A stretch of 64,000 nucleotides of DNA from Bidens hawaiensis (taxonomy: Eukaryota; Streptophyta; Magnoliopsida; Asterales; Asteraceae): the NCBI GenBank assembly GCA_021521415.1, contig JAIQDT010000172.1, positions 186,001 through 250,000 on the forward strand. The letters run 5' to 3'. Below the pieces are notes generated by a model, which was not told the DNA's origin, did no database searches, and worked only from the letters and a program-made list of their open reading frames with translations. Below are positions 1,100 through 51,765 of the stretch, in pieces. The translations under genes were made by a program, and so were the position numbers. The first letter of the stretch is position 1, and the number at the start of each line of letters is the position of its first letter.

Positions 1100-4000
1100 A
1101 TGGCTACAAGTTCGAGTACCAACAAGAGGATTCAATCGATTCTCGAAAGTGATTCTGAATCGGGAAGCTATAACAAGCCACCGAAGCTAATGACTTTAAA
1201 CGAATTTACAACCTGGAAGACAAGATTTCAAATTCATATAACAGGTGTAAATCCTGGACTTTGGGAAGCTGTCCAGACAAGTTGGGTGCATCCAACGAAT
1301 GATGATGGTGAGTCGTTGAGCTACTTTAGGCTATCTGAAGAACAAAAGATAGCCTTCGATGCTGAGAAGAAAGCCTTCTCCTTACTATCACAAGCACTCT
1401 CCATTGATCTTTTTCATCAGTTTAACCAGTTTACTACAGCGTCAACTCTTTGGAACGCACTGGTTGACCGATGTGAAGGATCTGATTCCCTTAGAGAAAT
1501 TCACGCACGGGAGCTCAAGCGTGAATTTGATCTGTTTAGTCCAGAGTCGGGAGAAGATATTGAGTCGTTACTGTCGAGATTTTACCATCTAATGTCAGAA
1601 CTCAAGTCCTATAACGTCAAAACTACAGGGACTGAGAAAGTTAGATGTCTTGCACAAGGACTTCCACCTAGCTGGAGCACCTTCCTGACAGTAATGAGAA
1701 GAAGTCATCAGCTGGAGACGATTCTCCTGTCTGATTTTATTAAAGAAATCAGACACGAAGAGGCTGAACTAAGAGCCTCTTCCAGAAAACCGAGATCAAC
1801 TTCTGACAAATCACTTTACATGTCAAAACCTCCTATGTCAGATTCAACTGATCATGCTCCGATGAAGACCGCTTTTGTCTCCTCAACGTCAAATCAATCA
1901 AAGGGGACTGAAACGAGATCTTCCGTCCCACCATTAACTTCTGGAAACTCAAGTACTAACTCCGGACCCAAGTCAACGGAGAAAGCAACGTTGAATACTG
2001 AAGGCTTGGGAACAGTAACAGTGGAGGTTGCCAAAGAACACATGGCAACTCTAGGCACGATAATTGAGTCCTACAGTTTAATGGTGGCGGGTAAGCTAGG
2101 AAATAGTCATCTGGACAGCGATGACTATGAACAGCTTGACGAAGATGATATGGAACGCATAGACATTATGTGGGCTCTTGGCAGTGCGTTCCGAAGGGCC
2201 AGAAAGTGGACGAAGAAAACAGGTCAGGCCCTCTCAATAAACAACAAATCCAAGTTCGGCTTTGATAAAAACAAAGTAAAATGCTACAACTGTGGCGAAC
2301 TTGGTCACTTTGCCAAGGAGTGCTCGAAGCCAAGAAGGGAAGGTCACCAATATCCCTTCCGAACCACTTCATCATCATCCACTCCTGCTGCAGCAGCTGC
2401 AACTGTCAACCTTGAGAGACAACTGGTCCCTCAAAATCAAACCGCAGCAAACAACGTCGACATCAACAACGAAACTGCTCTTGCAGTTCAAGGGGATGAA
2501 GGCGAGACATGGAACTTGAGCATCAACATGGCTGATGTCACAGTAGTAGATGAAAACTCTGAAACAGAGTCTGTTGTTTCCTCGACCAATGAAGAATATA
2601 TTGTCGATGAACCAGCTGCTGAAGTCCATGAAGGAGAACCTGAGGTTGAAGTGGTATCTTTGGAGATTAAGGAGGATCACGAAAAAGAGTCAAATGTTCC
2701 TCAAATATCTCCATGTTCGACAATTCCCGCAGAGGCTGCTAAAGTTGAAGAAGTCAACGAAGTAGAGTCTAAAGCAACTTCTGCATCGTTTCTGGAAAAA
2801 GCTGGGAATCTTTGCTTTGCATTCATGGCAGAGACATCAAATGCCAAGGTAAGTTCTAACCCATCAACTCCCAAACCAGAAAATGTTAAATGTTTAAAAT
2901 GTGAATTGTATGAACAAGAAATTCAATCTCTAAAAGAGAGAATTGAAGATCTCGAGGCTTACAAACAAGCAGCCTCAAGATCTTTAATGGAACTGACTGA
3001 CGCGCTTGCACAGAATAAGGCTTGGAAGCAGAAAGAGTCTGTTTTTAAAGAAAAGATTGATAGCCTTAAGCGTCAGAACAAGGAACTTGAAATATGTGTT
3101 CTGAATCAACAAGATTCTATCAATTTTCACATAAATAAGAATAATGTTTTGAAAAAAGAATTGGAAAACTTGAAAGCTGATTTTGAATCATTGAATTTCA
3201 AATTAAAAAGTTACTCAAATTCATCTTATTTATTAGAACACATCATTCCCGAGTTCCGAGGCAAAAAGGAAAAAGGCGTGGGATATAACAATGTCCCACC
3301 CCCGATCCTGAATCAATTTGCAAGCACACCAGGAGCTGTGCCGGATGATGAATCAAATGATTATACACCCGAGGAGACAAACAAAATTTCTAAGTCTAAG
3401 GGTAAAGAAGTCATTGACCCGGCTCCTGAGTCCAAACAAAATGTTGTTGCCACAGACTTAGGTTCCACAACTAAATCGGGCCCACCACCATCTAAGTCAA
3501 AGGCAACAACAACAAGAAGTTCTCAGAAGAAAAAGTTTAATCCTAAATCTGAGAAAGTCTATGTGGAACATAGTACCCAGTTTGTAAAGGAGGGTAACGT
3601 TAATGAAAAACATAATTTCCCAAAACACCCTCCTAGACAAACGACACCCCAAAATGTCAAATCCAGGGGGTACTATGATAACAGACAAAACCAGAGTTAT
3701 TTCTCTCCACCAAGTCAAAGGGGGAGAAACTACTGTTTTTCGTGTGGAGAGGTAGGGCATATAGCAAGATTTTGCTATAAGTACACGGATCCTAAGCAGT
3801 ACATATCGACTCCGGATCCGAGGTACGTCAAGTCACCTCCTAGAAGGCGACCGACCATTGACGTTCAAGGTCAAGAACGGTTTCACACACCGAGGTCGGT
3901 TTCTCCTCGGAAACCTCAGCCAACCTCACCACACCAATCCCCAAATCCCTCAGATCCAAATGTTTCCACTTCGACAAGTGAAACTCAGTCTTCAACCATC

Positions 4001-4177
4001 TATCTCAAACATGCTGAGAAGAAGACTGACTTTTGGAAACCAAAGAAAACTAACACTGTTGATAACAACGTCAAATCTGAAAACAGTGTTAATGAGGGTA
4101 AATGGATTGAATTGTTCATTCGTGATGAAGATGGAAAACCCAAGACCTTAAGGGCTTGGGTTTCCAATGATATTTAA
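1100..4177 (+). CDS. gag: Element A Gag (1025 aa), two zinc knuckles
   Basis: Structural protein that would form the particle and bind genomic RNA. The N-terminal third is a copia Gag domain (UBN2/Retrotran_gag_2 type). A CX2CX4HX4C knuckle lies at residues 395-408 (CYNCGELGHFAKEC), with basic residues before it. Acidic stretches follow, then a predicted coiled coil at about residues 597-710, then a second knuckle at 879-892 (CFSCGEVGHIARFC) within a basic, Pro/Ser-rich tail. At 1025 aa this is much longer than typical copia Gags. The ATG follows an A-rich context and starts the conserved region. The stop TAA is at 4175-4177, in the same frame as pol. A GTAAGT donor-like site after codon 583 could let splicing drop the second half. 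Confidence 0.92.
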   Translation: MATSSSTNKRIQSILESDSESGSYNKPPKLMTLNEFTTWKTRFQIHITGVNPGLWEAVQTSWVHPTNDDGESLSYFRLSEEQKIAFDAEKKAFSLLSQALSIDLFHQFNQFTTASTLWNALVDRCEGSDSLREIHARELKREFDLFSPESGEDIESLLSRFYHLMSELKSYNVKTTGTEKVRCLAQGLPPSWSTFLTVMRRSHQLETILLSDFIKEIRHEEAELRASSRKPRSTSDKSLYMSKPPMSDSTDHAPMKTAFVSSTSNQSKGTETRSSVPPLTSGNSSTNSGPKSTEKATLNTEGLGTVTVEVAKEHMATLGTIIESYSLMVAGKLGNSHLDSDDYEQLDEDDMERIDIMWALGSAFRRARKWTKKTGQALSINNKSKFGFDKNKVKCYNCGELGHFAKECSKPRREGHQYPFRTTSSSSTPAAAAATVNLERQLVPQNQTAANNVDINNETALAVQGDEGETWNLSINMADVTVVDENSETESVVSSTNEEYIVDEPAAEVHEGEPEVEVVSLEIKEDHEKESNVPQISPCSTIPAEAAKVEEVNEVESKATSASFLEKAGNLCFAFMAETSNAKVSSNPSTPKPENVKCLKCELYEQEIQSLKERIEDLEAYKQAASRSLMELTDALAQNKAWKQKESVFKEKIDSLKRQNKELEICVLNQQDSINFHINKNNVLKKELENLKADFESLNFKLKSYSNSSYLLEHIIPEFRGKKEKGVGYNNVPPPILNQFASTPGAVPDDESNDYTPEETNKISKSKGKEVIDPAPESKQNVVATDLGSTTKSGPPPSKSKATTTRSSQKKKFNPKSEKVYVEHSTQFVKEGNVNEKHNFPKHPPRQTTPQNVKSRGYYDNRQNQSYFSPPSQRGRNYCFSCGEVGHIARFCYKYTDPKQYISTPDPRYVKSPPRRRPTIDVQGQERFHTPRSVSPRKPQPTSPHQSPNPSDPNVSTSTSETQSSTIYLKHAEKKTDFWKPKKTNTVDNNVKSENSVNEGKWIELFIRDEDGKPKTLRAWVSNDI

Positions 4178-4198
4178 ACCTTTTGTTTTTGTGTGCAG
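2849..4198 (+). other. Putative alternative intron joining gag to pol in element A
   Basis: The donor AAG|GTAAGT follows base 2848, exactly after gag codon 583. The acceptor TTTTTGTGTGCAG|GT ends at 4198, with a T-rich tract before it. Both edges are phase 0 and the interval is 1350 nt. Removal would take out the coiled coil, the second knuckle and the gag stop, and would fuse Gag to protease in frame (about 1720 aa). Readthrough of the single in-frame stop is the alternative, since gag and pol share a frame. Element C has the same two sites. Confidence 0.6.
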
Positions 4199-7100
4199 GT
4201 TGCTCTATATGATCCAAGATTCAATATGTGGATCATAGACTCAGGAGCTTCCAGGCACATGACTGGAAACATGAATCTCCTTTCAAGAGTCAGACAAATA
4301 AAAGGAGGTGCAGTTTCTTTTGCAGGAAATCAAGGAGGTTATATCACGGCCCAAGGAATTGTGTCTAATGGGCGAATTTCGTTTGAGAAAGTTAATTTCA
4401 TCAAAGAGTTGGAGAACAACCTGTTGTCGATAAGTCAAATCTGCGACAAAGGTTTCAAAGTTATGTTTGACGACCGAGATTGCCACATCTTGGCTAAGGA
4501 TTTCAACTTTCCTGAAGACAAGGTTTTAATGTCAGCTGCACGCCAGAGTGATCTCTACATTCTGGATATGGCTAAGGCAGGGTCATCGTCTCCAACGGCG
4601 ACATGTTTCGTGTCCAAGGCATCCGAACGTGATACTGTCTTATGGCATAGACGGATGGGACACATAAATGTCAGGAACATGAACAAGCTTGTGCACCGCA
4701 GACTAGTTGAGGGAGTTAATCTGAGAAGTTTTCGTCTCCCTGATTCGTGTGTGCAGTGCAAAGCCGGAAAGCAAATAAAAAGGTCCCACAAGTCTAAGAG
4801 TTTCCACTCAATTGATATTCCGTTGGAACTCCTTCATATGGATCTTTTTGGCCCAATAAGCGTCAAAAGTATCTCTGGGCACTCATACTGTCTAGTGGTT
4901 ACTGATGAATATTCTAGATTCTCTTGGGTGTTTTTCTTGAAAGTAAAATCAGAAACGTTTGGGTGTATACAACTGCTGGTTACAACTATTGAGTCTCAAT
5001 ACAATCTGAAGGTTCGAAGAATGCGGTCAGATAACGGTACAGAATTTAAAAATGCGAATGTTGAAAATTTCTGCAAAGAAAAAGGGATCGTTCAGGAGTT
5101 CAGTGCCCCATATGTTCCACAAATGAACGGGGTTGCTGAAAGGAAAAATCGTACGTTAATCGAGACAGCAAGAACAATGTTAGCCGACTCAGTGTTACCT
5201 GTTACGTTTTGGAGTGAGGCAATTGCCAACGCCTGTTTCACATTAAATCGGGTAGGCATCGTCAAGCGCCACGGCAAGACAAGTTTCGAGCTTCTTCAAC
5301 GACGAAGGCCTAACTTAGAGCACCTGGAACCATTCGGGGCTCTTTGCACGTTACTTAAAAGGCAAGTCGATAATAAGTTCGAGGAGAAGATCATCAACGG
5401 CTATTTTCTGGGTTACAGCATACCTCTCAAAAGGGTCTTCAACAGAACAACAAAATTAGTTGAAGAATGGTACCATGTCGATGTTCAACGCTACACAGAA
5501 CCAGCCAAGGGGACAGGAGAAGACTGGTTGTTTGATTATGACAAATTGTTCAAGTCATTCAATCTGTATGAGATTGCTATTCAAATGATGTATGAGGCGC
5601 AAAATGCACCTCCTGATGAATCTTTGCAATCTTCAACTCATCCTGGTCCGTCATCATCTTCCTCCACAGAGTCTAGCGATCAAGTTCAAGAATCTTCCGA
5701 ATCTGAATCTGAAGATGAATCTCCAGCAGATGATGTACAATCGGCACCAACTCAGGTTACTTCACAACCTTCATCGTCAAATCAAGAAGTGCCGAATGCA
5801 GATCAGCCTCTAACGTCTACTTCAGAGGCACCACAATCCGCTCCAGTTCCTGAGCCGAACTTAACTAACTTGGAACAAAATGTTGTCGTTCCTGACAATC
5901 CGGTTGTTAGAACTGAACGTGATCATCCACAAGACAACATTATAGGGGACATTCAACAGGGTGTCAAAACTCGTCGACAGCTGAATTTTGGTCTCTACAC
6001 AGAAATGATGGAGTCAGGATCAGTTGCTCTTAATGCCCATGAATGCTTCTTAGCACAAGAAGAACCACACAGCACCACAGATGCGCTGAAAGATTCCAAC
6101 TGGGTCTCAGCCATGCAAGAGGAATTATTGCAGTTTAAAAGACTTGGTGTGTGGAAGCTGGTGGATCTCCCCAAAGGACAGAAGAAAATTGGCACTAAGT
6201 GGGTACTAAAATGTAAACGTGACGATCGTGGAGTGATTGTTCGCAACAAAGCCCGCCTGGTGGTCCAAGGGTTTAGGCAAATCGAAGGCCTAGACTACAA
6301 TGAGGTATATGCTCCGGTTGCTCGTTTGGAGGCAATCCGGATGTTCTTGGCGTATGCATCTTTCAAGAATTTCAAAGTATATCAGATGGACGTCAAGAGT
6401 GCCTTTTTGTACGGTCACATCGAAGAGACCGTATATGTGGCACAACCTCCAGGTTTTGAAGACCCATATCACAAGGACAAAGCCTATCTGCTCAACAAGG
6501 CTTTGTACGGTCTTCACCAAGCCCCGAGAGCTTGGTATAAGGAACTATCCAAACACCTTCTGAACAACGGGTTTAGAAGGGGAACCATTGACTGCACGCT
6601 ATTCTCAAAAGAAAAAGAAGGAGATCTAATTATGGTACAAGTGTACGTGGACGACATCATCTTCGGGTCCACGAATAAAACACTTTGTAAGGAGTTCGAA
6701 CAAGTGATGAAAGAAAAATTTGAAATGAGCTCCATGGGTGAGATGAAGTTCTTCTTAGGACTTCAAGTTGATCAAAAAGATTCCGGTATCTTCATTCACC
6801 AGACAAAATACGTCAATGACATCTTGAAACGGTTTGAGATGTTGAGTTCTTCTTCACAGGGAACTCCTTTAGAGGTTAATCACGGGATTAATCCTGACGA
6901 GAAGGGTGAATTGATCAATCCAACTCACTATAGAGGGATCATCGGATCTCTAATGTACCTGACTGCTTCTCGGCCTGACATAATGTTTGCTACGTGTCTC
7001 TGTGCACGTTACCAGTCAAAGCCGAAGGTCTCCCATCTGATTGCAGTCAAAAGAATTTTGCGTTATCTGAAGGGTACTCCAGATTGGGGTCTTTGGTATC

Positions 7101-7612
7101 CTTATGATGACAACTTCGATCTTCATGCGTATAGTGATTCGGATTATGGTGGTTGTAAACTCGATTACAAATCAACAACAGCAGGATGTCAGTTCTTTGG
7201 AAGTCGTTTAGTAACGTGGCAATGCAAAAAACAGACGTCAGTCTCCACTTCAACAGCTGAGGCGGAATATATTGCGGCTGCCAGTTGCTGTTCTCAAGTT
7301 ATTTGGATTCAGCAACAAATGCGTGACTACGGTATTGAATGTTCTACTACTCCCATATATATTGATAATTCTGCTGCAATTTCAATTACCAAAAATCCGG
7401 TCCATTTTAGCAAAACGAAGCACATCGAAATTCGATATCACTTCCTTCGTGACTGCTACGAAAAGAAGTTAATCGATGTGATAAAAATCCCCACTCAGGA
7501 ACAACGCGCTGATCTATTCACTAAAGCATTTGATAAACCACGGTTTTTATATTTACTAGAGATCAACGGCGTTAAACGTATATCAGATGATGTTCCTGAA
7601 GATATCATTTAA
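4193..7612 (+). CDS. pol: Element A Pol: protease, integrase, reverse transcriptase, RNase H
   Basis: Intact copia polyprotein of about 1137 aa counted from the putative exon start at 4199. Aspartic protease has DSGAS with Asp at residue 16 (numbered from 4193). The GAG_pre-integrase LWHRRMGH motif follows. Integrase has D217, D280 and E316, giving the expected 35-residue D-E spacing. Reverse transcriptase has YVDD at about 818-821. RNase H shows YSDSDYGG, STAEAEY and YIDNSAA. A Ser/Glu-rich linker separates integrase and reverse transcriptase. No ATG opens the frame: 4193 is a GTG inside the acceptor sequence, and the first ATG is one codon from the protease core. Expression therefore probably depends on splicing or stop readthrough from gag. 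I saw no internal break. Confidence 0.95.
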   Translation: MQVALYDPRFNMWIIDSGASRHMTGNMNLLSRVRQIKGGAVSFAGNQGGYITAQGIVSNGRISFEKVNFIKELENNLLSISQICDKGFKVMFDDRDCHILAKDFNFPEDKVLMSAARQSDLYILDMAKAGSSSPTATCFVSKASERDTVLWHRRMGHINVRNMNKLVHRRLVEGVNLRSFRLPDSCVQCKAGKQIKRSHKSKSFHSIDIPLELLHMDLFGPISVKSISGHSYCLVVTDEYSRFSWVFFLKVKSETFGCIQLLVTTIESQYNLKVRRMRSDNGTEFKNANVENFCKEKGIVQEFSAPYVPQMNGVAERKNRTLIETARTMLADSVLPVTFWSEAIANACFTLNRVGIVKRHGKTSFELLQRRRPNLEHLEPFGALCTLLKRQVDNKFEEKIINGYFLGYSIPLKRVFNRTTKLVEEWYHVDVQRYTEPAKGTGEDWLFDYDKLFKSFNLYEIAIQMMYEAQNAPPDESLQSSTHPGPSSSSSTESSDQVQESSESESEDESPADDVQSAPTQVTSQPSSSNQEVPNADQPLTSTSEAPQSAPVPEPNLTNLEQNVVVPDNPVVRTERDHPQDNIIGDIQQGVKTRRQLNFGLYTEMMESGSVALNAHECFLAQEEPHSTTDALKDSNWVSAMQEELLQFKRLGVWKLVDLPKGQKKIGTKWVLKCKRDDRGVIVRNKARLVVQGFRQIEGLDYNEVYAPVARLEAIRMFLAYASFKNFKVYQMDVKSAFLYGHIEETVYVAQPPGFEDPYHKDKAYLLNKALYGLHQAPRAWYKELSKHLLNNGFRRGTIDCTLFSKEKEGDLIMVQVYVDDIIFGSTNKTLCKEFEQVMKEKFEMSSMGEMKFFLGLQVDQKDSGIFIHQTKYVNDILKRFEMLSSSSQGTPLEVNHGINPDEKGELINPTHYRGIIGSLMYLTASRPDIMFATCLCARYQSKPKVSHLIAVKRILRYLKGTPDWGLWYPYDDNFDLHAYSDSDYGGCKLDYKSTTAGCQFFGSRLVTWQCKKQTSVSTSTAEAEYIAAASCCSQVIWIQQQMRDYGIECSTTPIYIDNSAAISITKNPVHFSKTKHIEIRYHFLRDCYEKKLIDVIKIPTQEQRADLFTKAFDKPRFLYLLEINGVKRISDDVPEDII

Positions 7613-8559
7613 ATTGTTTTCATTTTTTCTTTTCTTAAAAATTTGAAAAATCCAAAAAGAATTTGTTTTTTATAAATTCTAGGGGGAGAAAGGTTTCAAG
7701 AAAAAAAACCAAAAACAATATAAAATACAAAAACCCAAAAACATTAAAAAATTTTCAAAATTTTGAGAAGTTGATCTTGTTACAAGAAAGGTGATAGTAC
7801 ACAGACGCTATCATACTGAGACATCAAAAAGATTTGCTATTTCTGTACAGCTTATTTTCATTTTTCTTATATTAAATTTTTATACATCACTATCGCTTAA
7901 AATTATGTCGATTACTTCAGTTTGATGGACACATTTTCGGATGTGTTTTGGTCCTTACTTCTACTAGTAGATTATGAGGATAGCCATTAACCAGATGACT
8001 GAAAGTGATCGGGGCGGGTTTTGATGGGTTTTTATTCTTTCGCTGAAAAATAGTCGGTTATACTTAGTTAGAAGGACACATACTCGTATGTGGTCGGTCC
8101 AGTTGATCCATTGGATCTTCAGGATAGCCGTTTACCTGAAGACTTTGACTTGATCGGGGCGAAATAATTTAAACGTTATATTTTTTAAAAGACATTCATA
8201 TATATTCAGAAAATGAGAAATTGATCCAACCTTGGAAAATGATAGATACACTGATTCTGTGTGCTTAACTAGTGAAGTTATTAGGCTTAAAAGGCTTTAG
8301 AACGGTCATTGTGTGTCATGGTAGCTTTTTATGGTGCGTAAAAGTAGATGTGATACAAACTAAATCTACTCGATTTTACGTGGAAACTCCTTAAGAGTTT
8401 TGTATGTCTTCATATATATCTTTCCGAATGATAGGCAGAAAAGCGATTACCCAGTCATACACGAGCCCATAAGTGTTCTGATTCCCGTAAAGATAGTGTG
8501 TGAAGAAACTGCAGTGATCCAGATTCGGGACTTGCAATTGTTTACTACTCTGAAGTCTA

Positions 8560-8606
<47 letters not shown>

Positions 8607-9019: not shown

Positions 9020-9067
<48 letters not shown>

Positions 9068-9179: not shown

Positions 9180-9226
<47 letters not shown>

Positions 9227-9677
9227 TCAGATTAAAAATCCTTTTTTTTTTTTTGATAAAAACCAAAAAGATTTTATTTATTTTATCTATTTCTGTTTGT
9301 TTGAGAATCGATGAGAAATCATCGTGACAGGTAGTCTGATCCCTGTCTGTTCCTACTAAATGTTTATCCAGTGTGTAGGAATGAAAGAAAACTTCATGCA
9401 GGTTGCTAAATGTTCATCTGTGCAACAGGCTGTGCATGAAAGAAAGAATGAAGTGACAAGAAAACCCAAAGATGTTTGAGCCTGACATGTTTCCATTTGT
9501 TACTAATGTATTATGATCTATATGTTCTGTAGGAACGAAGCTCTCAGGATTGGAAAATGTCTACGAAAACTAACCAAGTGTCAAAAGTTTATGTTTTCGT
9601 GCAGGTTCAAAGGCATCACGATCGATGGACGGGAAATGAGAAATTTATAAAATTTATTTTTCAAATGTTTTCCCTCA
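8823..9677 (+). other. Noncoding spacer with long A tracts, element A
   Basis: I see no gene here. The stretch holds two further A homopolymers of roughly 41 and 37 bases (9024-9064, 9185-9221) and a T run near 9242-9254. A frame at 8830-9087 reads through an A tract into poly-lysine and is not credible. Confidence 0.6.
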
Positions 9678-9945
9678 TTCGATCGAATAGGTTGCTATTC
9701 GAATGAATAACTCGATCGAATGAACTGATTCGATCGAATCAGTGTGTGAGAGAATGCGAACAGTTGTGAAGAGACTCATTCGATCGAATAGAATCTCATT
9801 CGATCGAATGATCCAAACGAATCAGTGTGTGAGAGAATGCGAACAGTTGTGAAGAGACTCATTCGATCGAATAGAATCTCATTCGATCGAATGATCCAAA
9901 CGAACAAGTCCATTCGATCGAATAAGTCCAAAAACAGTATAAATA
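9678..9945 (+). promoter_or_regulatory. Putative internal promoter of third gene: TTCGATCGAA array plus TATA box
   Basis: Seven exact TTCGATCGAA copies (starts 9678, 9729, 9779, 9799, 9862, 9882, 9913) precede TATAAATA at 9938-9945. The last copy ends 15 bases before the TATA box, similar to the LTR promoter. A pyrimidine-rich stretch follows, as in a plant 5' UTR, then a GTAAGT site at 10075. Part of the array is an 83-bp tandem duplication (9738-9820 and 9821-9903). Confidence 0.6.
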
Positions 9946-10074
9946 TTCAAACTTATTCGATCGGACAGATTTATTCGAAAAATATTACGGATTTTCTCTC
10001 TCAAATTTGTTTTTTCTCAAACCCTCTTTTTAATCCGATCACATTATTCAGTTTTTCACGTAGATTACAAAAAT

Positions 10075-10429
10075 GTAAGTTTTACTTGTTTTTAACCGTG
10101 TTTTGATCGGGTTTTTGGTCGTTTTGGTTCGGGTGTTCTTCATTCCGGGTTTCTGCTTGAATGAGTCGAATCAGTCTATTCGATCGAATGAGTTTCTTAT
10201 TCGATCGAATGTGACTTATTCGATCAGTAGTTCGATCGAATCAGAAGTAAATGATAAGATCTATCTCATTCGATTGTCTGTTATCGAACCAGATCTCATT
10301 CGATCGAATGAATAGCTCACCCGATCGAATGTGGTGCTCGTTCGATCGAACTAGTCCAGAAAGTTTGAAAATTTTAAACGCATTCAGTCGTTTCGATATC
10401 TGTTCGTTCTAACACGTTTAAGTTTACAG
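10075..10429 (+). other. Putative 5'-UTR intron of third gene, element A
   Basis: The donor-like AAAT|GTAAGT is at 10075 and the acceptor-like TTTACAG ends at 10429, five bases before the ATG at 10435. The 355-nt interval holds five more exact TTCGATCGAA copies (10179, 10200, 10231, 10299, 10341). D2 has a comparable donor and acceptor before its third gene. Confidence 0.5.
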
Positions 10430-10434
10430 ATTCA

Positions 10435-11294
10435 ATGGCTGAAGTTGCAGAAGTGGTTGCTCCATTCAAAACGTCTATCAAGCACAATATCGTGGCTTTC
10501 TTGGACGAAAAGTCTAGCCACGGGAAGGATTTTGCAACAATTATCAAATTTCTGAAGAGGTCGAGGATTTCTGGACCTATCTCGAGGATCGTTGAGCCGA
10601 TAATGTCAATTCAACAAGAGTTCTGGAGGAATGCCACGCACGACAAAACAGTCGTGCCGTCGGTTATTCGCTCCACGGTCAGAGGGCATGCCATCGTAGT
10701 ATCTGCCCAGGTAATCCGAGAAGTCTGCGGTTTTGAAGACTTAGAATCAGATCCTACATCCTTACATCCTGCGGCAACTAGAGGATGTTTTGCAAGAATG
10801 AAGTATGACGGCGATCTCAATGCCGGTCTGCTTCACAAAGCCAACCTGTGCCCCGAATTCAAGTATCTGGCACACGTGGTGATGCATTGCTTGGGGCCTC
10901 AACGAACTAGCTTTGACAAGCTGAGGGAAAGCATGCAGTTCACCGTAGCTGCTCTGGTGATGAACCGCCCCTACAACTTCTCTCAAATGACGTTTGGTCA
11001 TATGGTGGAAAACATCACGTTAAAACAAGGGAAGAGCGAGAAGTTTCTTCAGTACCCGAGGTTCATTCAGATGATAGTTGATACTCAAGCACCGGGTCTA
11101 CTGAAAGAAAATGAAGGTGATGTGGTGAAACTGGACCACATGAAGAATGAGACTCTCAAGCGTCTCAAATCCTACAAAGAACTTCCCACCAGGCCACCAC
11201 TCAAACGATGCTTCGGGCATATTGTCAATCCGTCCTACAGGGCCCCTCCGAAGAGGAAGTGGAGAAATGCTGCCAGTGATTCAGACGTCGAGAA
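10435..11294 (+). CDS. Element A third gene, part 1 (interrupted by B1)
   Basis: The first 286 codons of the third gene, starting at the first ATG after the putative 5'-UTR intron. It encodes a mixed alpha/beta-looking domain with no transmembrane segment or signal peptide, so it is not obviously envelope-like. I do not recognise a characterised domain. The degenerate frame around 44980-45490 in D2 resembles it in layout and in a few motifs. B1 inserted after base 11294 and its GAGAA target is duplicated at 19739. The next segment of the gene resumes at 19744 in the matching phase. In the present allele the frame runs into the B1 LTR and stops at 11325, so the gene is disrupted. Function is unknown; a nuclear regulatory role is inferred from the later parts. 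Confidence 0.8.
11290..11294 (+). repeat. Target site duplication of B1, left copy
   Basis: GAGAA, repeated exactly at 19739-19743 after the B1 3' LTR. This proves a single B1 insertion into element A. Confidence 0.97.
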
Positions 11295-12230
11295 TGTTGG
11301 AATACCGTATGCCCGAGACACATAATTAGGTTAATGTGGCTAGCCGTGTTTGATCCAAGTCGGGTCATACCCAATAACGAGTTAGACACATACCAATTAT
11401 GTATTTGTTAAGATAAGATCTATAAGACAAATACAGAACACAATACATTCAGAAAATCGGGTTTCTGAATACTTACTTGAAAGTGTTAAATAAATTAATT
11501 GGTTAATTTATTTATTCAAATAATTATTATTGGAATGATTATTTAACTATATGATCTTTTGTAAAATGGTTTATAAAAGATGGGGTGTTTATATATTTTA
11601 TAAAGTATAAAATAAATAAAAAAAAAAAAAAAAAAAAAAAAAAATTATATATTGGGGCCGGTTTTGGGTGGGCCCCACACCCCACTAACTTGGTCAAAAT
11701 CATTAACATGCAAAAGATGGAGGTTGAGTGTATAAGTGTTTATATCTACCTAACCATGCATTCTTGGGTGTGATGATGATGAAGACCCTTTTTAATAACT
11801 TTCAAGTAAACAAAAAAAACATACAACTCTTCCTTTCTTTCTTTCTTGTTTACGGCCAAAAGGAAAAAGGAAGGGCTCGGGTCTCGTTTTTCGTGTTCAA
11901 GCTCCCTAGCATAGCTCGGTGCGTGTTGGAGGCTCGGGGTATATTCGGTTTGAGAGTTTTCCTTTGAAAGTCTTGCATTCATCATCATCTTCTTCAACCA
12001 CCTACTAAACTCTTAAAGGGTTAAGATTGTAAGTGTTTATATAGCTTTGATTGTTTAGTTGTTCCCGTATCATGTGATCCTAGCTTCGGGTTTCTAGTAA
12101 ATAGATTATTGGTAATCTTGCAATGAATAAACTAGGTTGTTCATATGGTTAGTTTGTCTATCACGTTTCCGCATTAATTATAACTAGTTAAACGGTTAAC
12201 TAAGTTTGTAAATTCCGTAGAAACCCACCA
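11295..12230 (+). repeat. B1 5' LTR
   Basis: Begins TGTTGGAATACC and ends AACCCACCA. It holds an A tract (about 11619-11644), a GC-rich inverted repeat TGGGGCC/GGCCCCA near 11653-11678, and a donor-like ATT|GTAAGT at 12029. A short frame of about 79 codons near 11728 also occurs in the 3' LTR and is not a gene. Confidence 0.96.
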
Positions 12231-12232
12231 AA

Positions 12233-12246
12233 TGGCATCAAGAGCC
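12233..12246 (+). other. B1 primer binding site (variant)
   Basis: TGGCATCAAGAGCC starts two bases after the LTR and resembles the initiator-Met site TGGTATCAGAGC with changes. B2 has the same sequence at 55133-55146. The exact primer tRNA is uncertain. Confidence 0.65.
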
Positions 12247-13979
12247 GGGATACGGGAAACTAAGCTTCGGGTTCTCGGTTTTTTTATTTTCCCCTTGAAA
12301 GATTTTATACAAAAATTAACATGCATGATATTTTTGTATTTAATCTTGTTATTGTTTTTGGCTTTGTTCAAAAAAAAAAAAAAAAAAAAACCGGGCAAAT
12401 GGGCCGAAACCCAATTCGGGTGAATTTGGGCCGAAGCCCATTTTGGTTATTTGGGCCGAGCCCATAAAATTTTATTGGGCCGAGCCCATAAAGTTTTAAA
12501 TGGACCGAGCCCATGGTTATTATTGGGCCGAGCCCATATAGTTTTATTTGGGCCGAGCCCATGCAGTTTTTTATTGGGCCGAGGCCCATAATCTTGTTAT
12601 TGGGTCAAGCCCAAATGGGTTGGGCTAGGCCCGATAAAGCAAAGGGGTTTTTGGAACGGGTTCCTATGACATATCGGGTTATGTTTGTTAGTACTAGACC
12701 GAGCCGTAGACCAAATGGATGTTTTGTTTGTGGTTGATGTTGTGATTGTAATTTATTATTCAAAGTATCGGTTTGTAATAATTTATTAGGGGCTATTTTG
12801 TAATTATTTATTCATATGGGTATGTAATAAATAGGTAATTTGTAATATCTTTATTTTATAGAAAAAATGTATTAGGACATTTAATTTTGTAAAATTTAAG
12901 AAGATTGCAAAGTTGGAAGTTTGGGCCTAATTGGGCCGGGTATGGTCATAATGGGTTTCACAAGCCCATTAAGGGATTCAAGCCCAAAAGGACCTAAGCC
13001 CACCAATTGAGCCCAAGTGGAAGCTTATGGAAGCTAAGGCCCAAGTTCAAGCCCAATGGATCACAACAAGGTTGAAGAAGATGCTCGAAGCATTTGGATG
13101 CGGGATCGAGTGGGAGCTACAACATCCATGTGTCATGTGTCCCTTAGGATTGGACCTAAGACACACACTTGTTTCGGCTAACAAGTGTGGTCTAACTTAG
13201 TGGCTCGTGTCTAGTATATATTGTGTGTATGCTTGTTGATTGATTGTTTGATTGTGTGGTTGTTAGATATTAGGATATCAACTCCGTCACATAGAATTAA
13301 TTAACAAAGCATAAAACGGGTTCTAATAATTATCGATAATTACGTGACACGTAGTTTAATAAAATGGAATTATTAACTAGCCGTCTCACGCCCATAATAA
13401 AAATGGTTTTATTATAAATTAGTTTTGAAAATGGTTTCAAAATCATGTTTCTAAATGCATGTTAGAACATGATTTAAAGTTTTATATCTAGAATTATTAA
13501 AACTAAAAATCCCTTTAAAATTAAGGATAATAAGTTAAACACCATCCTTTTGTATAACACTTAACATATTAGTAAGCTCTTAGTGGGAAAAAGGTCACCT
13601 AACCGCATAGAGTAAATTAACATGTTAAGGTAATATTGGCATATAAATGGGAAAAAGGTCACCTAACCATTTGTATGTTAATATTACAAGTTGATACAAG
13701 TAGGACAACTTAAATTAGAACCATGTGAAGAGGGTCACCCAAGCATGGGGTCTAATGGGTGTTGATGGGATAAACATGCCAACACGAAATATGATTTCGA
13801 ACCGGTCCCATAAATTCTAGAAGTTGCAAAAGGGTTTGCAATTGTTATGAATAACTACCTTGATAAACCGACAAAGGGAAAAAGGTCACCTAACCGGAGT
13901 TGGGTTTATCGTTGGATTCTAGATTTTAATTATTAATTATATAAAAGGGTATTAATAATTAAAAGGTTAAAACACTAAA
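12247..13979 (+). promoter_or_regulatory. B1 leader with TGGGC/GCCCA array and GGTCACCTAACC repeats
   Basis: Untranslated leader. Between about 12397 and 12640 some nine copies of TGGGCCGAGCCCA-like short inverted repeats occur every 25-30 bp; more GCCCA boxes lie at 12923-13050. From 13585, GGGAAAAAGGTCACCTAACC occurs three times (13585, 13649, 13876) with a degenerate fourth near 13727. TGGGCY is the known site II motif bound by TCP factors; any such role here is inference. No gene is visible. Confidence 0.7.
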
Positions 13980-16900
13980 ATGAACTTATTTAAAATTCTG
14001 CAGATGGCCACACACGTCGACGACAACATTATCCCTAACGTCCAAAACGTATCTCTCCGATCTATTCTCGCTAAAGACCGTCTTAACCACAATAACTTTT
14101 CGGATTGGTTCCGAAATTTAAGGATTGTTCTAAAACAAGAAAAATTATATCATGTTTTGGAAACACCTATCCCCGAAGAACCGGAAGAGGGAACTGAGGT
14201 CGAATACATGAATTGGGTCAAACTCACGGAAGATTCCATTCAAGTATCATGCCTCATGTTGGCGACTATGGTTCCCGAAATCCAAAAGGATTTCGAAAAC
14301 CATAATGCGTACGACATGATTACTCAACTTAAGGAAATGTTCCTTAAGCAATCGAGAGTGGAAAGGTTCGAAACGGTTCGAGCCTTACATGCATGTAGAA
14401 TGGATGATAGTCAACCAGTTTCATCTTATGTACTTAAGATGAAAAGTTATATTGATCGGCTCACTAAGCTCAATTGTCCCATCTCAAATGAGTTAGCAAC
14501 GGATTTGATCCTTAACTCTTTGTCGAAAAGGTTCGACACTTTCGTGTTAAATTATAACATGAACGGGTGGGACAAAACCATTGGAGAACTTCACTCAATG
14601 CTTAAAACAGCCGAGGCGAGCATGGGCAAAAGGGTTTTACCCGTGTTTGCAATCAATGAAGGTAGATCCAAGAATCGATCTCAACCCAATCTTAAGGCTA
14701 AGGTAGCTAAAAGGAAGGGTCCCCCTATGCATCTTAAGGGTAAGGGCAAATCACCGGTTATGGCAAAGAAACAAAAGGTTGTGGAACCAAGGGGTCATAA
14801 GGATGATCCTTGTTTTGGTTGTGGGGAGACCGGACACTGGAAACGCAATTGCCCGGTCTACCTAAAAGAGCTAAAAGACAAGAGGAATGCGGCGCATACC
14901 TCGGGTAATGTCTTTATGATTAATGTTGAGCTAAATCTTATTTCTTCTAACACATGGGTATTGGATACCGGATGTGGAACTCATATTTGCAATTGGTTGC
15001 AGGGGTTCAAAAGGAATGAAGACTTGAAGAAGGGCGAAGTGAATCTTTTCATGGGCAACGGTGCAAGAGTACACGTGGTCGCTAGAGGAGACTTCACTTT
15101 ATCACTTCCAAGTGGTTTGGAAGTTGTTTTAAAAAATGTTTTGTATGCTCCTAGTTTGACTAGGAACATTATTTCTGTGCACCTTCTTAGACAATGTAAC
15201 TTTGACTTTAAATTTGTAGGATCGGAAATGCATGTGTCATCTAATGGTATCTTTTATTTTAAAGCTGTACCAAACAACGGTATTTATGAATTGGTTCATG
15301 ATAATACCTCAAATAGCTCATTATATCAAACTTCTACTAAAAGACTCAAAAAGGGTTTGAGTGATTCCTACATTTGGCATTGTCGCCTTGGACACATAAA
15401 CAAGAATCGTATAAACACTCTCCAAAAGAATGGTCTTTTGAAAACAAACGAGTTAGGTTCGTTTGATGAGTGTGAATCTTGTATTCAAGGCAAGATGACC
15501 AAAGAGCCTTTCAAAGGTACAAATGAAAGGGCTAAGGATTTGTTAGGTATCATACATACGGATGTATGCGGACCTTTCAAGCCAACTAGTAGGAATAGTG
15601 AAAGGTACTTCATTACCTTTACCGACGATTTTAGTCGATATGGGTATGTTTATCTAATGAAACACAAACATGAAGCCTTTGAAATGTTCAAAGAATTTCA
15701 AAATGAAGTGCAAAATCAGCTCAACCGAACAATCAAGGTACTCCGCTCCGATAGAGGAGGCGAATACCTAAGTGATACCTTTCAAAGTCATCTTAGAGAT
15801 TGTGGAATTATTTCACAGCTCACTCCTCCTGGAACTCCTCAACATAACGGAGTATCCGAGAGGAGGAATCGAACACTGTTGGACATGGTTCGATCAATGA
15901 TGGCACGAAGCTCACTACCGCCATCATTTTGGGGATATGCGCTACTCACAGCGGCTCGTATTTTGAATATGGCCCCGACCAAAAAGGTGGATCGAATACC
16001 CTATGAAGTGTGGCATGGAAAGGTTCCATCCTTTTCATATTTAAGGATATGGGGATGCATAGTTTATGTTAAACGTGACACCCCAAATAAGCTTGAGGCT
16101 CGATCCATCAGGTGTGTCTTCATAGGATACCCAAAGGATGATATAGGATATATATTCTATGATCCTAGTGAACAAAGAGTGTTTGTTTCACGCAAAGGAT
16201 ACTTCTTAGAAACTAGGTTCCTTATGGAAGGACCTAGTGAAAAGAGAGTGGAACTTGAAGAGGTTCAAGAATCACTGGATGATACACAGTTGGTCGATAC
16301 TAGCTTTCAACACGAGGATGTTGAAGATGATCAAATGGTTGATCATACGCACGTTGCTCGCAGATCTAGTAGGGTTAGTCAACCTCCCAAGAGATATGGA
16401 TTTCTTGTGGATGATTGCTACTTGATTGATTCGGATGAACCGATCTCCTACAAAGATGCTATGTCACAACCTGATTGTGACAAATGGCTTGAAGCCATGA
16501 GCGCCGAGATGCAATCCATGCACGATAACCAAGTTTGGGAATTGGTTGATCGTCCACTTAACTCCAAACTGGTTGGATGTAAGTGGGTCTTCAAAAAGAA
16601 GACCGATATGCATGGAAATTTAGATACTTACAAAGCTCGACTTGTCGCAAAAGGTTTCACGCAAACTCAAGGGATTGATTATGATGAAACCTTCTCGCCA
16701 GTCGCGATGCTTAAGTCGATCAGGATATTGTTTGCCATTGCAGCTCATTTTGATTATGAGATATGGCAAATGGATGTCAAGACCGCTTTTCTAAATGGAT
16801 ATCTTGAGGAAGATGTCCATATGGTTCAGCCTGAAGGTTTTGTCGATCCATCTAATCCTGACAAAGTATGTAAGTTAAGGAAATCAATCTACGGGTTGAA

Positions 16901-18020
16901 ACAAGCATCACGGATGTGGAATCATCGTTTTAATGAAGAAATCAAAGCGTTTGGTTTCGTCCAAAACGGTGATGAGGCGTGTGTGTATAAATGGGCTAGT
17001 GGGAGTATAATCATTTTCCTTATTTTGTATGTCGATGATATACTTTTATTTGGAAATGATATACCAAGTATGGAAAACGTTAAAACGTGGTTAAGTAGTC
17101 GTTTCTCAATTAAGGATCTTGGAGAAGCGATATATATCTTGGGAATAAAAGTCTATAGGGATAGACAAAGGAAATTGATCGGACTCAATCAAAGTGCGTA
17201 CATTGATAAAATCCTAAAGAGGTTTAGGATGGAAAACTCTAAGAAAGGTTTGGTGCCTATTCCTAGAGGAACTGTATTAAGCTCATCCCAAAGTCCTAGC
17301 TCTAAGGAAGAGCAGGATAGGATGAAGCATGTTCCTTATGCTTCGGCAATAGGATCTATTATGTATGCAATGATGTGCACTAGACCGGATGTCTCGTATG
17401 CTTTAAGCATAACAAGTAGATACCAGCACAACCCAGGTGACAGTCATTGGATGGCTGTCAAGAATATATTAAAATACCTTAGAAGGACTAAGGATATGTT
17501 TTTAATATATGGGTCTGGTGAGGAAGAACTCGTCGTAAAGGGTTACGTGGATGCGAGTTTCCAAACTGACCGAGATGATTCTCGGTCACAGTCGGGATAT
17601 GTTTTCATCTTAAATGGAGGCGCTGTCTCTTGGAAGAGTTCGAAGCAGGATGTTGTCGCGTTATCCACTACAGAATCTGAGTACATCGCCGCTTCAATGG
17701 CAGCCCAAGAGGCTGCATGGATGAAAAAGTTCATCATGGATCTAGGGATTATCTCTTCCATTCAGGAGCCCCTAGAGATATTCTGTGACAATGAGGGTGC
17801 TATTGCACAGATCAAGGAGCCTCGTGCTCATCAGAAAACGAGGCACATTGAGCGCAGATTCAACTACATAAGGGATGAAGTTGAAAAGAGAAAAATATGT
17901 ATTCATAAAGTTCATACCGATCAAAATATTGCGGACCCACTCACGAAGCTCCTCGATAGGCCAAAGCATGAGGGTCATGTTTGTGCATTAGGACTTCGGT
18001 ATTCTAGTGAGTGGATTTAA
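13980..18020 (+). CDS. gag-pol: B1 Gag-Pol polyprotein (1346 aa), intact
   Basis: A single copia frame. Gag is at the N-terminus, with a zinc knuckle CX2CX4HX4C at residues 278-291 (CFGCGETGHWKRNC). Protease has LDTGCGTH with Asp at 329. The GAG_pre-integrase WHCRLGH motif follows. Integrase has D528, D591 and E627 with the canonical 35-residue D-E gap. Reverse transcriptase has YVDD at 1017-1020. RNase H shows GYVDASFQTD, STTESEY and FCDNEGA. All key residues are present and there is no internal stop, so the element may be autonomous. A second ATG at 14004 lies directly after an acceptor-like CAG and could be the true start; the first eight codons would then be leader. Confidence 0.96.
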   Translation: MNLFKILQMATHVDDNIIPNVQNVSLRSILAKDRLNHNNFSDWFRNLRIVLKQEKLYHVLETPIPEEPEEGTEVEYMNWVKLTEDSIQVSCLMLATMVPEIQKDFENHNAYDMITQLKEMFLKQSRVERFETVRALHACRMDDSQPVSSYVLKMKSYIDRLTKLNCPISNELATDLILNSLSKRFDTFVLNYNMNGWDKTIGELHSMLKTAEASMGKRVLPVFAINEGRSKNRSQPNLKAKVAKRKGPPMHLKGKGKSPVMAKKQKVVEPRGHKDDPCFGCGETGHWKRNCPVYLKELKDKRNAAHTSGNVFMINVELNLISSNTWVLDTGCGTHICNWLQGFKRNEDLKKGEVNLFMGNGARVHVVARGDFTLSLPSGLEVVLKNVLYAPSLTRNIISVHLLRQCNFDFKFVGSEMHVSSNGIFYFKAVPNNGIYELVHDNTSNSSLYQTSTKRLKKGLSDSYIWHCRLGHINKNRINTLQKNGLLKTNELGSFDECESCIQGKMTKEPFKGTNERAKDLLGIIHTDVCGPFKPTSRNSERYFITFTDDFSRYGYVYLMKHKHEAFEMFKEFQNEVQNQLNRTIKVLRSDRGGEYLSDTFQSHLRDCGIISQLTPPGTPQHNGVSERRNRTLLDMVRSMMARSSLPPSFWGYALLTAARILNMAPTKKVDRIPYEVWHGKVPSFSYLRIWGCIVYVKRDTPNKLEARSIRCVFIGYPKDDIGYIFYDPSEQRVFVSRKGYFLETRFLMEGPSEKRVELEEVQESLDDTQLVDTSFQHEDVEDDQMVDHTHVARRSSRVSQPPKRYGFLVDDCYLIDSDEPISYKDAMSQPDCDKWLEAMSAEMQSMHDNQVWELVDRPLNSKLVGCKWVFKKKTDMHGNLDTYKARLVAKGFTQTQGIDYDETFSPVAMLKSIRILFAIAAHFDYEIWQMDVKTAFLNGYLEEDVHMVQPEGFVDPSNPDKVCKLRKSIYGLKQASRMWNHRFNEEIKAFGFVQNGDEACVYKWASGSIIIFLILYVDDILLFGNDIPSMENVKTWLSSRFSIKDLGEAIYILGIKVYRDRQRKLIGLNQSAYIDKILKRFRMENSKKGLVPIPRGTVLSSSQSPSSKEEQDRMKHVPYASAIGSIMYAMMCTRPDVSYALSITSRYQHNPGDSHWMAVKNILKYLRRTKDMFLIYGSGEEELVVKGYVDASFQTDRDDSRSQSGYVFILNGGAVSWKSSKQDVVALSTTESEYIAASMAAQEAAWMKKFIMDLGIISSIQEPLEIFCDNEGAIAQIKEPRAHQKTRHIERRFNYIRDEVEKRKICIHKVHTDQNIADPLTKLLDRPKHEGHVCALGLRYSSEWI

Positions 18021-18799
18021 TCCGTGTTTAGTGTTTGTTTAAGAACGAATGTAATGGGTATCTCATGAAATTAATTAAGTTTTAATTATTAAATGAGTTA
18101 TGTTCTATTTTTGCATGTTTAATCCATGAATGACTTATGTTGTTCTAAACGTCCGTAGTCGATCATGCTTGTGGGAACAAGTATGAAGGTAAGACTATTA
18201 TGAACCTGGATTGGTTGATATTCATGTGATGAATATAAGGCATAGGTTTGCCACCAAGGTTCATAGATATTTGTGGGATACAAATATTGGACATGATCCG
18301 CTCTCGAGGATCACTGCATGGAGTTAGTGCAACTGATCATAAGTAATCCTTGAGTAAAGGCGAGTATCATTGTGTCCTTTGACCTGAGATGCATATTGGA
18401 TCTGACCTTTCATCAAGTCTGATAACTTGACTCTCTTCTTTGTTTTTCGGTAACACGATGACATAAAAGAAAGAGCTCAGATATCATACGAGATGTCAAC
18501 AAGGATGTATGCAGTCAAGATGGGATTTGTTCCTCTTATGTGTTGAGAGTTTAGATGTCTAAGGCCTGTTAAGTTAAATCAATGAGAGAATGATCAATCT
18601 ATGTCTCTTCGATTTGACAGGACATCTAGTAACAAAGGGATGTAATGATAAGACTTACCTATATCATATCAAGTATGGACTTGAAGGGGATGATGTTATT
18701 GAATGGCACTTAGTCAAACACACTAGGGGTGGTGACCTGTTGTTAGGCGGTATTCACCATTAGCATTAACTTCTTATGAGTCACGTGCAAGTGGGAGAT
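18021..18799 (+). other. B1 3' untranslated region and polypurine tract
   Basis: Noncoding. It ends in AAGTGGGAGATT just before the 3' LTR, the likely polypurine tract (about 18789-18798). No gene is visible. The same sequence with few changes follows the B2 gene at 60956-61735. Confidence 0.8.
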
Positions 18800-19120
18800 T
18801 GTTGGAATACCGTATGCCCGAGACACATAATTAGGTTAATGTGGCTAGCCGTGTTTGATCCAAGTCGGGTCATACCCAATAACGAGTTAGACACATACCA
18901 ATTATGTATTTGTTAAGATAAGATCTATAAGACAAATACAGAACACAATACATTCAGAAAATCGGGTTTCTGAATACTTACTTGAAAGTGTTAAATAAAT
19001 TAATTGGTTAATTTATTTATTCAAATAATTATTATTGGAATGATTATTTAACTATATGATCTTTTGTAAAATGGTTTATAAAAGATGGGGTGTTTATATA
19101 TTTTATAAAGTATAAAATAA

Positions 19121-19154
<34 letters not shown>

Positions 19155-19738
19155 ATATATTGGGGCCGGTTTTGGGTGGGCCCCACACCCCACTAACTTG
19201 GTCAAAATCATTAACATGCAAAAGATGGAGGTTGAGTGTATAAGTGTTTATATCTACCTAACCATGCATTCTTGGGTGTGATGATGATGAAGACCCTTTT
19301 TAATAACTTTCAAGTAAACAAAAAAAACATACAACTCTTCCTTTCTTTCTTTCTTGTTTACGGCCAAAAGGAAAAAGGAAGGGCTCGGGTCTCGTTTTTC
19401 GTGTTCAAGCTCCCTAGCATAGCTCGGTGCGTGTTGGAGGCTCGGGGTATATTCGGTTTGAGAGTTTTCCTTTGAAAGTCTTGCATTCATCATCATCTTC
19501 TTCAACCACCTACTAAACTCTTAAAGGGTTAAGATTGTAAGTGTTTATATAGCTTTGATTGTTTAGTTGTTCCCGTATCATGTGATCCTAGCTTCGGGTT
19601 TCTAGTAAATAGATTATTGGTAATCTTGCAATGAATAAACTAGGTTGTTCATATGGTTAGTTTGTCTATCACGTTTCCGCATTAATTATAACTAGTTAAA
19701 CGGTTAACTAAGTTTGTAAATTCCATAGAAACCCACCA
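18800..19738 (+). repeat. B1 3' LTR
   Basis: 939 bp, matching the 5' LTR apart from A-tract length (about 28 versus 25) and one G/A change at 19725. Ends CCCACCA before the GAGAA duplication. Confidence 0.96.
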
Positions 19739-21838: not shown

Positions 21839-22186
21839 TTGTCATGTTTATTTTGTTTCTTGTTGTAATTCAAGGTTTAATCTTCTGATTGTAATTGTTC
21901 TTGAGTTGAATGTAATTTGTTTTGGAACATTGGGATAGATTGTGCTTAAATGTTTATCTAAAATTCCAATTGATAGCTTCTCAGGATATGCGGAACCTAT
22001 GGTAAGTCTGACTGACTGAACCATTTGATCTTGAGAGAACTTCATGAAGAAAGGAGTTCGTGGATGCAACGTGCGCACCACTAGCTTTGAGAAAAGAGAG
22101 AGTGAGATAACTCCAAGGGGGAGTTACAATCGAGCAAGAGAACTCGATTGATTATAAGTAAATAGAACTGGCTCCAAGGGGGAGTT
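21839..22186 (+). other. Element A 3' region with doubled polypurine tract
   Basis: Noncoding. CTCCAAGGGGGAGTT occurs twice, at about 22111-22125 and 22172-22186, some 60 bp apart; the second abuts the 3' LTR. Repeated polypurine tracts are known in Sireviruses. No gene is visible. Confidence 0.85.
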
Positions 22187-22635
22187 TGTTAGGACATGAA
22201 ATGTCATGTATATGTCCCCAGTTCTATCAGGATGGTTCGATATGAAAATAACGATCGTGAAACCAAGTTAACGGACTGAAAATGTCAAAAGAAACTGATT
22301 CGATCGAATCAGTGACTGATTCGATCGAACCAGGACTCATTCGATCGAATGAGATACTCATTCGATCGAATCAGTATTCGATATATAAACGAAACTTAGG
22401 AAATTTCACGAGGGATAGCACACATTACACACAGTCACGAACCAGCTGCTGCCGAAAAACCTCTCTGCCAATCTTCGTCGTGTCGGTCTTTTCCTCCGTC
22501 CCTAGGTGTCAAACCGTCTTAGGAATCGTAACCGTGCGTTGTTGATCACCACCGAATCGCCGTGTTAGAGGATTCCGCACTCTAACACGTTGCCCCGTGA
22601 ATCGTTGGGAAACCGTGTCCCGCACCGGTCCGACA
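22187..22635 (+). repeat. Element A 3' LTR (449 bp)
   Basis: Starts TGTTAGGACATG directly after the polypurine tract and ends CCGACA. Bases 22381-22635 equal window bases 1-255. It contains the U3 palindrome array and a TATA box. GATTCCGCAC near the end also appears near the ends of the C LTR and the 27812 solo LTR. Confidence 0.95.
22298..22389 (+). promoter_or_regulatory. LTR promoter: four phased TTCGATCGAA sites before TATA
   Basis: Exact palindromes start at 22298, 22319, 22339 and 22360, spaced 21, 20 and 21 bp, two helical turns each. ATATATAAA follows at 22381-22389, 11 bp after the last site. The regular spacing puts all sites on one face of the helix, as for cooperative protein binding. 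Confidence 0.7.
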
Positions 22636-51744: not shown

Positions 51745-51765
51745 TCCTCTGCTTTAATCGTGCAG
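50585..51765 (+). other. Putative gag-pol intron of element C
   Basis: The donor GAG|GTAAGT follows 50584, phase 0 (280 codons from 49745). The acceptor TTTAATCGTGCAG ends at 51765, phase 0 relative to protease. These positions correspond to those in element A: just after FMAE/YMAE in gag, and immediately before the pol start. The interval contains the coiled coil, second knuckle and gag stop, plus this copy's frameshift. Confidence 0.55.

Follow-up and report, generated by a model that had tools for sequence, protein, structure and literature searches.

How does a retrotransposon make its Pol proteins when gag and pol lie in one reading frame and are parted by a stop codon? The question is raised by element A, a long terminal repeat (LTR) element in a 64,000-nt stretch of Bidens hawaiensis contig JAIQDT010000172.1 (positions 186,001–250,000, forward strand), referred to here as the window. 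Element A extends from an LTR end at 1–255 to a 3′ LTR at 22187–22635, with another element nested inside, and resembles the Sireviruses of the Ty1/copia superfamily. Its gag open reading frame (ORF) runs from ATG 1100 to TAA 4175–4177 and encodes a long Gag of 1025 amino acids. As an earlier, sequence-only reading of the window had described, this stop is the only one between gag and pol, which is open from 4178 to 7612 in gag's own frame. In its accessible passages, the literature leaves Pol expression in Sireviruses open and suggests bypass or internal entry (PMC2829016). Here we report base-exact genomic copies of element A from which the end of gag is missing as an intron, and we argue that this coding intron probably governs the production of Gag-Pol.

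Splice sites and intron-less copies

Splice sites were scored with an approximate plant weight matrix, and the GTs and AGs of the window were ranked. The donor AAG/GTAAGT (slash, splice site) begins the intron at 2849, directly after Gag codon 583, and ranks first among 3573 GTs on the + strand with 11.39 bits. The acceptor TTTTGTTTTTGTGTGCAG/GTT ends the intron at 4198 and ranks first among 3941 AGs on that strand. A score of 11 bits or more is attained on the + strand by the donors at 2849 and 50585 alone, and on the − strand by none of 3449. The intron is 1350 nt long and in phase 0 at both ends, and its removal joins codon 583 in frame to the protease; the sites named by the sequence-only reading proved exact. 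Across the donor, element A reads AFMAETSNAK/VSSNPSTPKPENVKCLKCELYEQ.

The host's own assembly (3.47 Gb) was searched for the spliced junction, with reversed patterns as controls. With up to three mismatches allowed, the search located the exon–exon junction of A 26 times in the genome: 16 places match exactly, two differ at one base, and eight differ at two. The control gave none. The intron-bearing donor occurs at 757 places (control 5). Twenty of the junction places were fetched as 10-kb stretches. Read from the bases, the junction is identical in all of them, and what is missing is precisely 2849–4198. On either side of the junction, the blastn pieces keep the order of the window, breaking at window position 2850 and restarting at 4197 in 18 copies; in the other two, members of a variant subfamily, the upstream piece breaks at 2843. 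An LTR end is present in 17 of the 20. The Gag-Pol frame is open in 16, over at least 533 codons before the junction and at least 1136 after it, and interrupted in four. The in-frame join of Gag to protease that the earlier reading had proposed is thus found in genomic DNA. Farther from the junction, several copies carry deletions, duplications or other elements of their own (e.g., L038, L045, L047, L049, and L052). When seven copy pairs were compared over their first 2200 nt, similarity started at the LTR start in five; one further pair is alike only beyond base 2031, and one also shares an inverted upstream stretch.

A second search aimed at less bias than the junction search. Exact exon-2 starts, GTTGCTCTATATGATCCAAGATTCAA, that lack the C at −3 of the intron's CAG were found at 16 places (control 0), a count that misses copies with any change in these 26 bases. 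All 16 read AAG/G, and they coincide with the 16 exact-junction places. Two other joins were tried on the same genome and rejected. A 39-nt intron from a late donor at 4160, a type present in some relatives' gene models, has a donor of rank 2244 of 3573 and no junction copies. Donor 2849 joined to a strong acceptor at 9604, ahead of the env-like ORF, likewise has none.

Among 28 fetched intron-bearing copies, chosen by exact donor match and hence sampling loss of the acceptor rather than of the donor, the acceptor is kept in all 28; the sequence-only reading would have been contradicted by copies that lack the AG yet keep the gag stop, and there were none.

Some copies stand out by their degree of identity. 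In L039, L053, and L054, the gag half is diverged (∼82%) and later parts are 96–97% identical; L006 and L008 are ∼90% identical overall. These patterns suggest template switching between subfamilies.

Recurrence of the intron-less form

A tree was built from the exon flanks only; intron-bearing sequences, the window among them, supplied 29 of its rows, and intron-less copies supplied 20. The intron-less rows are scattered among the intron-bearing ones, with 17 state changes as a rough figure, at least seven of which are forced by well-supported branches. Bootstrap trees give 15–17 changes, and a single origin in 0 of 200. Shuffled labels give a mean of 15.8 changes, so the observed label is as scattered as a random one.

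A second element in the window, B, contains a corresponding intron, GAG/GTAAGT…TCGTGCAG/GAA (Table 1). By local alignment, A and B share 27% identity in gag and 46–65% in pieces of pol. In each, an A-x-M-A motif precedes the donor and a C-x-K-C-E..LYEQ motif follows it, a pairing made by eye from these motifs since the local alignment stops at A residue 504 (50632) and pairs no donors. The B junction occurs at 13 genomic places (3 exact, 5 with one, 1 with two, and 4 with three mismatches; control 0), and the intron-bearing donor of B occurs at 3476 (control 0). Two of the 13 were fetched. Copy L058 aligns with window positions 49832–50585 and again from 51764 at 85–88% identity, and its frame has no stop in any of the 500 codons seen. 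In L057, the translated end of exon 1, AFMADAKDQLSE, resembles the B kind. The B intron of the window, at 1181 nt, is not a multiple of three; since this copy is broken within its intron, the difference in frame may be decay.

To our knowledge, reverse transcription of spliced RNA is the sole process that explains base-exact intron loss across many lineages. Repeated splicing of A at exactly 2849/4198, and splicing of B at its equivalent sites, is therefore as good as shown.

Two further elements bear on this subject. C2 carries a matching acceptor, …TTTGTGCAG/GAA, before its protease. Element D (27540–27370, − strand) reads …FACMAKISDSTMSAWMSKQNEGTSKTISGENWIMDSG, like a Gag joined directly to protease and free of the extension; this element may stem from spliced RNA of yet another family.

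Table 1. Coordinates of Features in the Window (All on the + Strand)
Feature	Position	Basis
5′ LTR end, element A	1–255	LTR start upstream of window; 100% match to end of 3′ LTR
Putative primer-binding site TGGTATCAGAGC	259–270	read from sequence
Exon 1: Gag codons 1–583, copia gag domain and first CCHC knuckle (2282)	1100–2848	Pfam Retrotran_gag_2 6e-18, zf-CCHC 2.9e-8
Phase-0 coding intron, GTAAGT…TGTGCAG	2849–4198	top donor and top acceptor; missing from 20/20 fetched junction copies
Gag extension, read only upon intron retention; second CCHC 3734; stop TAA 4175–4177	2849–4177	open-frame and nonsynonymous/synonymous (N/S) counts
Hairpin at gag end, inside intron, AAACCCAAGACC-TTAA-GGGCTTGGGTTT	4136–4163	fold z −3.05 (4134–4167), −2.10 (4130–4200)
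Exon 2: protease, integrase, reverse transcriptase	4199–7612	Pfam PF22936, PF13976, PF00665, PF07727
Polypurine tract (PPT) octamer AGGGGGAG	7681–7688	sequence count
Env-like extra ORF, interrupted by nested element	10435–11325	Pfam PF20167 45.6 bits, cut-off 45
PPT octamer AGGGGGAG	22116–22123	sequence count
Terminal PPT octamer AGGGGGAG, TT/TG after	22177–22184	sequence count
3′ LTR, element A	22187–22635	repeat match, genomic copies
Acceptor before protease of element C2	36121–36140	acceptor rank 2/3941
Corresponding intron of diverged element B, 1181 nt	50585–51765	donor rank 2/3573, acceptor rank 11/3941; 13 intron-less places

The reading frame of the retained intron

When the intron is retained, gag continues into an extension. 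In 26 of the 29 intron sequences, the frame stays open until the gag stop at codon 443; 24 of these are 1350 nt long, and the other two, at 1351 nt, have one additional base beyond the stop. The remaining three, each of 1349 nt, stop early. The 24 introns of 1350 nt differ by 35 synonymous and 52 nonsynonymous changes and by no change to a stop, which amounts to an N/S per site of 0.39. As judged from these counts, the extension is shown to be under purifying selection. The second zinc knuckle that the earlier reading had placed inside the intron is indeed there at 3734 (Pfam zf-CCHC, 18.7 bits, below the 20.8 cut-off). The long Gags of three relatives (P0121, P0122, and P0124; 967–1022 aa) also contain two CCHC motifs each; the A-x-M-A motif was not found in these three.

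The stretch from the gag stop to the acceptor reads like a splice acceptor and varies at only 1 of 24 positions among 24 copies. Just upstream, the hairpin at the end of gag folds into 12 bp with a one-base bulge and a 3-nt loop; B has a counterpart at 51707–51732 with 11 bp and a 4-nt loop (z −5.15 for 51690–51770). Near the acceptor as it is, this hairpin may tune splicing. The sequence-only reading had also held that pol has no ATG start. This is correct as far as the acceptor; past it, the frame does contain an ATG at 4226, and the DSG motif of the protease follows four codons later.

Gene models of relatives

Among the best 120 of 7585 pol relatives, those with names include proteins of Mikania, Helianthus, Centaurea, Tanacetum, Arctium, and Smallanthus, all genera of the Asteraceae, the family of the host. 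We collected 127 relative proteins, of which 50 lack a protease motif by the pattern used and 30 have the motif with at most 150 aa upstream. The remaining 47 have more than 150 aa before the protease, and in nine of these (Helianthus 4, Centaurea 3, Tanacetum 2), Gag is joined to protease at the early site. Of 21 hand-picked proteins, 11 begin 14–36 residues before the protease motif; ten show Val-Gln or Met-Gln at that point, the residues that GTGCAG or ATGCAG would encode, and the eleventh shows Tyr-Gln, an observation at the protein level only, with some of the proteins near-identical. Scoring of 7988 candidates with Gag residues 400–1020 returned no relatives, and Sirevirus pieces sought in IMG/VR were not found.

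Proposed mechanism and alternative explanations

We propose that unspliced RNA of element A would serve as genomic RNA and encode the whole 1025-aa Gag as far as TAA 4175, including the C-terminal extension with the second zinc knuckle. The host spliceosome would remove 2849–4198, and with it the extension, the hairpin, and the stop, so that protease, integrase, and reverse transcriptase would follow Gag codon 583 directly and in frame. The end of gag would thus be a facultative coding intron. That removal of the intron yields an in-frame Gag-Pol fusion is shown at the level of the predicted frame. The spliced RNA is probably the Gag-Pol message since the frame is open and the joins are in frame in A and B. 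The share of RNA that is spliced would then set the ratio of Gag to Gag-Pol, and translational recoding would presumably go unused. We regard the account as a whole, with a facultative intron and spliced RNA as the message for Gag-Pol, as very probable.

Several observations weigh against this account. Genomic DNA copies by themselves show that splicing occurs, and not its frequency or the main source of Pol. The gag-end hairpin is what the published bypass idea would predict (PMC2829016, in its accessible parts). Among the relatives with a long region before the protease, the gene models of 38 of 47 do not join Gag to protease at the early site; since gene models are predictions, and are divided nine against 38, we do not count them as proof. 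Donor conservation in A rests on a sample selected, and so biased, by its donor. The exon-2-start search is blind to donors that carry a C at −3, and the fetched copies cover 20 of the 26 junction places. In the tree, 26 of 45 inner branches fall below 80 and the bootstrap is unsettled; with 20 rows that occupy only 41% of the columns, this makes seven a safer figure than 17. Finally, the blastn match of the B copy L057 is on the exon-2 side only, and its frame meets a stop 10 codons on.

The most serious alternative is that splicing is real but incidental and that unspliced RNA is the source of Pol, through ribosome bypass, readthrough, or internal entry at the hairpin and stop. Gag-end hairpins in both A and B would fit such a route, as would the single stop in one common frame and the ATG at 4226; bypass has been proposed for Sireviruses (PMC2829016) and the motif described (PMC5009743), as far as the accessible passages go. 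We nevertheless consider this alternative unlikely because no donor or acceptor on the + strand of the window is stronger than those of A, because B holds the second-strongest donor between the same motifs despite 27% gag identity, because the join is in frame in both elements, and because the acceptor-like stretch after the gag stop hardly varies. It is far less probable that the acceptor is chiefly used from another donor and provides Pol without Gag. The position of ATG 4226 ahead of the protease motif and relatives' models that begin one residue before DSG (e.g., P0025 and P0030) would be in keeping with this idea, whereas the best donor in the 5′ untranslated region of A reaches only 4.74 bits compared to 11.39 at 2849, all 16 exact exon-2 starts stem from donor 2849 (donors with C at −3 excluded), and the late donor left no junctions.

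Least probable of all, by a small margin, is that the short form represents a separate old lineage without the intron, or that the intron was gained later. A single old lineage as the full account is contradicted by the tree, in which intron-less rows stand beside intron-bearing ones in most parts; the boundary, moreover, is a splice junction to the base. For one group, a lineage of this kind may hold: all eight two-mismatch places share a GATGCC variant, and the two of them that were fetched, L055 and L056, form a separate clade; some intron-less copies may therefore have multiplied as a lineage. The genomic shares of the two forms, 26:757 for A and 13:3476 for B, are rough figures since the search patterns differ, and mirror what was packaged and inserted rather than RNA levels.

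Layout and lineage of element A

We take the sequence downstream of the 5′ LTR (Table 1) to be a primer-binding site of the initiator tRNA-Met type. The LTRs of genomic copies are ∼450 nt long. Domain order, octamers, the env-like ORF, and the hairpin point to a likely Sirevirus-type Ty1/copia element. The Pfam order is gag, protease, integrase, reverse transcriptase, as in copia elements; integrase lies ahead of reverse transcriptase, which is not the gypsy order of Ogre. PPT octamers occur seven times in the window (three in the linker of A, one in gag, three outside A) where 1.06 are expected; their letters are inferred, as the source passages do not print them. An env-like ORF follows pol, as reported for 74% of SIRE elements (PMC6317226, in part). 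An inverted repeat is present at the gag/pol boundary and was compared with the published motif by description only. Sireviruses have an enlarged Gag with a central CCHC and a coiled coil downstream of it; in A, the two traits surveyed were a Gag length of 1025 aa and a CCHC at 2282. The attachment site after the terminal PPT is TT/TG (22185–22188), unlike the AT/TG that is usual among Sireviruses, given the 20 elements with it in the accessible report (PMC2829016).

Other observations concern the surroundings of these features. ATTCGATCGAAT-like palindromes, seen by eye, recur in the leader (660–1060), before the env-like ORF (9670–9930 and 10150–10350), and in the LTR (22300–22370), and are reminiscent of the repetitive motifs that Sireviruses are reported to carry. 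The linker that separates pol from the env-like ORF contains three long poly(A) runs (8563–8604, 9024–9064, and 9185–9221). Ahead of the env-like ORF stand a TATAAATA box (9938–9945), a donor-like AAT/GTAAGT at 10075 (rank 55 of 3573), and an acceptor-like TTTACAG before ATG 10435; at 9938–10445, these sites are perhaps the ORF's own promoter and leader intron. Another LTR element is present in two copies (11295–19724 and 54212–62639), whose terminal blocks recur ∼7.5 kb apart and are 76–100% alike; one copy interrupts the env-like ORF of A and the other the reverse transcriptase of B.

Implications and comparison with known systems

Whether a facultative coding intron before the protease is the general Sirevirus route to Gag-Pol is a question on which we lean slightly toward no. 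If it were, the varying frames and extra stops between gag and pol of Sireviruses would be explained since only the spliced frame would matter, the bypass and internal-entry proposals would be replaced, and the hairpin would become a regulator of splicing. Spliced RNA would be packaged and reverse transcribed, re-entering the genome at shares such as those of A and B, and the family would keep yielding intron-less copies with a single ORF. Sireviruses are very abundant in some plant genomes. Processed genomic copies offer a direct, repeatable, and RNA-free test of splicing, and within this one genome two distantly related families give a positive result. A literature search that covered few subscription papers returned no description of a Gag-Pol intron in Sireviruses.

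The comparisons that follow reflect the accessible parts of the cited reports. In Ogre elements (Ty3/gypsy, Tat; pea and Medicago), an intron between blocks of the polyprotein is spliced from a subset of transcripts, and the whole then becomes translatable (PMC6317226). Element A resembles them in that removal of an intron joins the halves of a polyprotein, known in A from genomic products alone. It differs as a Ty1/copia element whose intron lies before the protease and encodes 442 codons of Gag that appear to be under purifying selection. If the route is general, Ty1/copia elements would join Ogre in the strategy of an intron within the polyprotein.

BARE1 and EVD are copia elements that, as proposed for A, divide Gag and Gag-Pol by splicing; their spliced RNA gives Gag only and their unspliced RNA gives Gag-Pol (PMC3735527, PMC12786077, and PMC8892269). 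The polarity in A is the opposite, as its spliced form is the fused Gag-Pol frame, open in 16 of 20 copies. With the Sireviruses (SIRE1, Opie-2, and others), element A shares a large Gag, an env-like ORF, several PPT octamers, and an inverted repeat at the gag/pol boundary, a motif that has been described (PMC2829016 and PMC5009743). In contrast to the recoding, bypass, or internal entry proposed for their Pol (PMC2829016), element A would probably use splicing.

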